This document shows, one piece after another, positions 18,052 to 18,123 of a DNA stretch of 20,904 nucleotides (positions within the stretch are counted from its first letter, which is position 1; every line of letters starts with the position of its first letter). The notes beneath the pieces are model-generated. The model searched no databases. It was given only the letters and a program-made list of their open reading frames with translations, and was not told the origin of the DNA. Source of the DNA: a virus. The translations under genes were made by a program, and so were the position numbers. The stretch covers positions 1 to 20,904 of IMG/VR virus record IMGVR_UViG_3300025853_000825. One strand, written 5' to 3'.

Positions 18052-18123
18052 TTACTTGTTACATACATACATTGTAACTTCAAAGCCGAAACGCATTTCT
18101 GCAGCAGTTGGTTTAGTCCACAT
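18052..18123 (-). CDS. pqqA: PqqA, precursor peptide of pyrroloquinoline quinone
   Basis: A 23-residue peptide with the full PqqA pattern: W2, K4-P5, R11-x-G13-x-E15-V-T-x-Y19. Glu15 and Tyr19 are the residues that PqqE (radical SAM, with PqqD) joins on the way to PQQ, and the numbering equals that of classical PqqA. It begins MWTKP like gammaproteobacterial PqqA; its [13 protein letters not shown] end looks like methylotroph versions. AAGGAATTAACC precedes the ATG. It is the only leftward gene inside a long rightward region, with its own promoter. No other pqq gene is in the window, so it must rely on the host PqqB-E. Role as an auxiliary metabolic gene is inference. Confidence 0.88.
   Translation of the reverse strand: [23 protein letters not shown]

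Follow-up and report, generated by a model that had tools for sequence, protein, structure and literature searches.

A pqqA gene for the PQQ precursor peptide in a probable Methylophilales phage and its relatives

Cyanophages carry the photosystem gene psbA as an auxiliary gene, by which the phage supplies a continually replaced part of the energy metabolism of its host. The locus described here would be alike in this respect, but psbA encodes a protein subunit, whereas the gene considered here encodes the ribosomal precursor peptide of a cofactor, PQQ, which has several users. PQQ synthesis consumes the peptide PqqA stoichiometrically, one molecule per PQQ, and cross-links its Glu and Tyr, while PqqB-E act as catalysts. 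In coastal seas, OM43 bacteria rank among the important consumers of methanol. In the Methylophilaceae, PQQ biosynthesis is reported to be a core function and 3-12 copies of pqqA are reported, the other pqq genes being typically single (PMC4109929).

The closest described viral case is VP_266 of Lake Baikal, a T4-like virus with a predicted Methylophilaceae host, for which PqqA together with a methanol dehydrogenase was reported in 2020 and virus-encoded PqqA was proposed to support methanol oxidation of the methylotroph (PMC7678222). In addition, pqqA has been listed among the viral genes of reservoir sediments (PMC13188868). The phage analysed here is alike in the proposed role of its peptide, but VP_266 is a metagenomic T4-like virus with its own methanol dehydrogenase, whereas our phage is a small relative of phage Venkman, and a PQQ methanol dehydrogenase was found in 0 of 50 pqqA-bearing records. 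In the open-licence literature, the papers on Venkman, MEP301, MEP401/402 and Melnitz leave pqqA unmentioned, and PQQ occurs once, as a medium additive. The medium used to grow H5P1, the host of Venkman and Melnitz, includes PQQ at 1 nM (PMC9004378). The initial annotation had left open whether such a gene was already reported for OM43 phages; the kind is known from the Lake Baikal virus, and the OM43 phage papers are silent on it. Within the same literature, the wide occurrence of pqqA in Methylophilales phages, cultured as well as uncultured, and its precursor-only form appear to be unreported.

Identity and surroundings of the pqqA gene

The DNA analysed, hereafter the window, is the whole stretch of 20,904 nucleotides of IMG/VR record IMGVR_UViG_3300025853_000825, and the features discussed below are collected in Table 1. 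The minus-strand translation of the candidate gene gave 23 codons followed by a stop, with Glu15 and Tyr19 at the classical PqqA positions, as the initial annotation had read, and in the E-x-x-x-Y spacing that is kept among relatives. The peptide matched both PF08042 (PqqA; hmmscan, E=3.8e-10, 39.9 bits, cut-off 21.1) and the NCBIfam equivalog TIGR02107 (E=3.1e-11, 42.8 bits, cut-off 20), and the two profiles were covered over their full length, above the curated cut-offs. A six-frame search found a single PqqA place above cut-off in the whole record (E=8.3e-11) and none in 14 control genomes, so a chance match is excluded. The peptide differs from the commonest Methylophilaceae PqqA in 3 of 23 residues, and the gene resembles its host counterpart in length, sequence, Glu15/Tyr19 and ribosome site. 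It differs from the host system in that PqqE was above cut-off in 0 of the 50 pqqA-bearing viral records and that no coding sequence is common with hosts (111 distinct viral against 109 host sequences, no identical pair). On these sequence comparisons, the identity of the gene as an authentic pqqA is near certain.

Table 1. Features of the window that bear on the pqqA locus
Feature	Position	Strand	Basis or remark
pqqA, PQQ precursor peptide	18052..18123 (stop included)	-	Pfam and NCBIfam matches above curated cut-offs
Ribosome-binding site AAGGAA, 6 nt 5' of the pqqA ATG	18130..18135	-	sequence
TATAAT, candidate -10 hexamer without a good -35	18157..18162	-	sequence; unscored by promoter scan
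Inverted repeat, CAAGGTATAATTTAGCCTTG then ATTAACTTTTTT, enclosing TATAAT	18148..18167	-	sequence analysis
Single-strand DNA-binding protein (SSB) gene, convergent with pqqA	17788..18036	+	PHROG single strand DNA binding protein, E=1.7e-8
Intrinsic SSB-gene terminator with a 9-bp stem followed by TTTTCT, between SSB and pqqA	18023..18044	+	
ParB-like protein gene	17054..17767	+	phrog_12305, E=4.3e-28
Phage recombination exonuclease (YqaJ/RecE-like)	16417..17049	+	phrog_149, E=3.5e-34
Small ORF upstream of pqqA and divergent from it	18193..18438	+	conserved beside pqqA in nearest relatives; no match in PHROG search
Terminase large subunit	3601..4890	-	66% to Venkman, 64% to ctXG6705
Portal protein	1486..3600	-	DNA 76.5% identical to Venkman over 863 bases

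Judged by its terminase and portal genes, the window is a phage contig and a relative of Venkman; the next-nearest terminases, at about 45-49%, are those of SAR11 phages of the HTVC010P type. The host is very probably a methanol-using member of the Methylophilales (OM43-type methylotrophs), and the earlier guess of an OM43 phage thus gained support from terminase and portal similarity to Venkman. The gene had also been likened to acquired cargo, standing by itself on the opposite strand. In the window both flanking genes are indeed on the plus strand, opposite to pqqA, but the arrangement does not hold as a general rule, as both neighbours were on the opposite strand in 38 of 109 viral pqqA loci.

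The initial annotation further credited the gene with its own -10 and ribosome site, of which the ribosome site is solid and the -10 is suggestive only. A site of the AGGA/GGAG/GAGG kind preceded 98% of viral pqqA genes, in comparison to 7% at a control position. The exact TATAAT of the window received no score in the promoter scan because an adequate -35 is absent, and it is best taken as a candidate -10. A promoter motif shared among the viral genes was considered and rejected, since exact TATAAT occurred at scattered distances and one-mismatch TATAAT in 84% of cases, in comparison to 78% in shuffles. The 6-bp inverted repeat of the window holds TATAAT in its loop and could possibly act as an operator, a leader hairpin or an attenuator. 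We noticed that the T run after this repeat is attenuator-like and that a small hairpin lies directly before the ribosome site in many viral and host pqqA leaders. The mean folding z of the leaders was -1.08 for viral pqqA, -1.26 for host pqqA and -0.47 for other phage leaders used as control; the excess of structure is modest and present in hosts too, and a conserved leader hairpin is therefore given here as an observation only.

Distribution and conservation among phages

In a phage collection of 50,697 records, two different PqqA queries gave an identical set of 12 records, of which nine are from Methylophilales phages, one is the uncultured Venkman relative ctXG6705 and two are contigs filed as Acinetobacter phage. 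A peptide search of viral genomes, proposed along with the first reading of the gene, led in this collection to these phages and contigs only. The one of the two Acinetobacter-filed contigs that was inspected (L002, CAKLQF020000010.1, filed as Acinetobacter phage MD-2021a) has molybdate, siderophore and pqqBCDE genes, with pqqBCDE adjoining the PqqA match; it is chromosomal DNA of a bacterium, apparently mis-filed as phage, and we rejected it as a phage carrier.

The terminases of the carriers fell into five groups (Venkman/window/ctXG6705, P19250A, MEP301, MEP401/402 and Melnitz), which did not recognize one another in blastp except for a distant similarity to Melnitz. PqqA was not found in the HTVC010P-type SAR11 phages, the next relatives by terminase. 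Since Venkman and ctXG6705 carry pqqA and the HTVC010P-type phages do not, the presence of the gene tracks the host and not the phage lineage. The gene lies inside complete genomes of cultured phages. An annotation as PqqA is missing from every inspected record of a Methylophilales phage and from ctXG6705; in the former, the gene is either absent from the annotation or its place is overlapped by a hypothetical ORF of the opposite strand that is unrelated to it. The remark that gene callers easily miss the gene was borne out, automatic auxiliary-gene annotation misses genes this small, and published gene lists of Methylophilales phages are to this extent incomplete.

The window peptide is 82.6-87.0% identical to those of Venkman, P19250A, MEP301 and MEP401/402, and 72.7% identical to that of Melnitz. 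In comparison with Venkman, P19250A and ctXG6705, the peptide is 83-87% identical and the SSB and exonuclease 41-50%. A homologue of the window exonuclease is found near pqqA in these three phages, and in Venkman the gene is likewise antisense beside recombination genes. At least 120 IMG/VR contigs contained the PqqA pattern, and a phage terminase was found in 26 of the 50 pqqA-bearing records. The gene recurs at the same site as in the window in independent contigs, and its position varies between phage lineages; in one relative (G026) it adjoins the terminase instead. When long contigs, possibly incomplete, were chosen by their terminase only (at least 30 kb for the MEP301 and MEP401 types, at least 25 kb for the window type), 9 of 19 had a PqqA match (5/7 MEP301-type, 2/6 MEP401-type and 2/6 window-type), so we rejected the idea that pqqA is universal in these phages. 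In the window-type relative G018, which is without pqqA, the SSB gene runs directly into the next small ORFs. From both observations pqqA appears to be dispensable in some relatives, whose contigs are possibly incomplete.

For 111 distinct viral pqqA coding sequences, pN/pS was 0.18 at a pS of 0.64, a ratio somewhat underestimated as the retrieval pattern fixed some residues, and the nearest neighbour was another viral sequence for 96 of them. The first IMG/VR scan was rejected as proof that Glu15 and Tyr19 are invariant, because its pattern itself demands both residues. With positions 15 and 19 left free, Glu15 and Tyr19 were present in 124 of 124 viral sequences, many of the contigs being in common with the first scan; in the newly found sequences Val16 is replaced by Ile while Glu15 and Tyr19 hold. 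Similarity to host PqqA and conservation of the two residues in related phages, the points on which the initial annotation had staked its reading, were thus both observed. As judged from these coding sequences, pqqA is under purifying selection among its viral relatives and so maintained in the sense expected of an auxiliary metabolic gene. It also resides in bona fide virus genomes (terminase, portal; complete isolate genomes) and is the homologue of a host metabolic gene with a host-linked distribution.

Proposed role and alternative readings

We propose, with a probability of roughly 0.8, that phage pqqA feeds host PQQ synthesis and, through it, the supply of the methanol dehydrogenase cofactor during infection. 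The peptide would be produced by the phage during infection, its Glu15 and Tyr19 would be cross-linked by host PqqD and PqqE after binding, and PqqB and PqqC would complete PQQ. Supplied with this cofactor, methanol dehydrogenase (XoxF/MxaF) could go on oxidizing methanol during phage replication. The phage would supply the stoichiometric substrate only, the catalysts PqqB-E being already in the cell, and for this reason a gene of 23 codons could suffice to keep the pathway running after host gene expression has fallen. Expression, processing and benefit of the phage gene are what we infer from the sequences compared.

On the host side, PqqA was found in 60 of 60 Methylophilaceae genomes sampled, with 1-12 matches each. 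Multiplication of pqqA alone is expected if precursor supply limits PQQ, because PqqA is consumed one for one, and the multiplication of host pqqA without pqqBCDE fits with the precursor being the limiting part. The highest number belonged to Methylophilales bacterium LSUCC0135 (G001), whose genome of 2.1 Mb has PqqA matches at twelve separate places; the other Methylophilaceae sampled had 1-10.

The main rivals of this proposal are that the extra PqqA serves another use of PQQ and that the gene is a mere passenger. In the former, the product would go to another quinoprotein, to redox protection or to secreted PQQ, as might be thought from the lack of a methanol dehydrogenase gene in the 50 pqqA-bearing records and the several users of PQQ. 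However, pqqA is confined to methylotroph phages, methanol dehydrogenase is the main quinoprotein of their hosts, and the Lake Baikal virus has both genes (PMC7678222), which makes this reading unlikely. A passenger would be taken repeatedly from a multicopy host source and persist without benefit to the phage. The source is large, with up to 12 scattered host copies, the position of the gene in phage genomes varies, and some related contigs are without it. Such a useless gene is, however, not expected to stay intact at the divergence seen here; the low pN/pS, the high synonymous divergence, the lack of sequences identical to those of hosts, the mostly viral nearest neighbours, the ribosome site before nearly all copies and the five unrelated carrier lineages argue against it, and we regard it as quite unlikely.

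Alternatively, the peptide could act as a decoy, tying up PqqD/PqqE so that PQQ synthesis of the host is blocked or diverted; that the phages encode the substrate without PqqE would agree with this. In a decoy, loss of the reacting Glu and Tyr would be expected, and these are exactly as in the host, so we consider a decoy very improbable. That host DNA was mis-assembled or mis-classified as viral has a precedent in the MD-2021a contig, which is bacterial DNA with pqqBCDE. The neighbours of the window gene are, however, phage replication and packaging genes, and the occurrence of pqqA in complete cultured-phage genomes and its synteny in independent contigs led us to reject contamination for the window, the chance of it being minute.

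Returning to the supply of precursor to the host pathway, we consider it reasonably likely that precursor-only pqqA is a common and host-specific gene of marine and freshwater Methylophilales phages, acquired in several unrelated lineages and overlooked by gene callers. It would represent a class of metabolic gene through which a virus contributes the substrate alone to a cofactor pathway based on a ribosomal peptide. Should OM43 phages supply PQQ synthesis in this way, their infections would have a bearing on methanol oxidation in the sea, which is directly testable with cultured phage-host pairs (Venkman and Melnitz on H5P1, MEP301 on HTCC2181, MEP401/402 on FZCC0133).

Other observations

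Six viral contigs (L006, L011, L014, L018, L019 and L107) carry another PqqA type (e.g. IRLGFEVTMYFKNR) and possibly belong to phages whose hosts are PQQ producers outside the Methylophilales. In the window itself, a cysteine-rich ORF of 55 aa on the minus strand (5597-5764; CTGVC...CISCHRTYDDLEQW) is unusual for a phage and presumably resembles DUF1289 proteins. The structural region includes a 580-aa protein (6167-7909, minus strand), whose C-terminal part is SAM-dependent methyltransferase-like, with an LDVGGG motif. Two adjoining DNA methyltransferase genes are located at 13717-15236 on the plus strand, and part of the second is 78-84% identical over 108-159 bases to methyltransferase DNA of the Bacteroides phages BU2-1/BU2-2.
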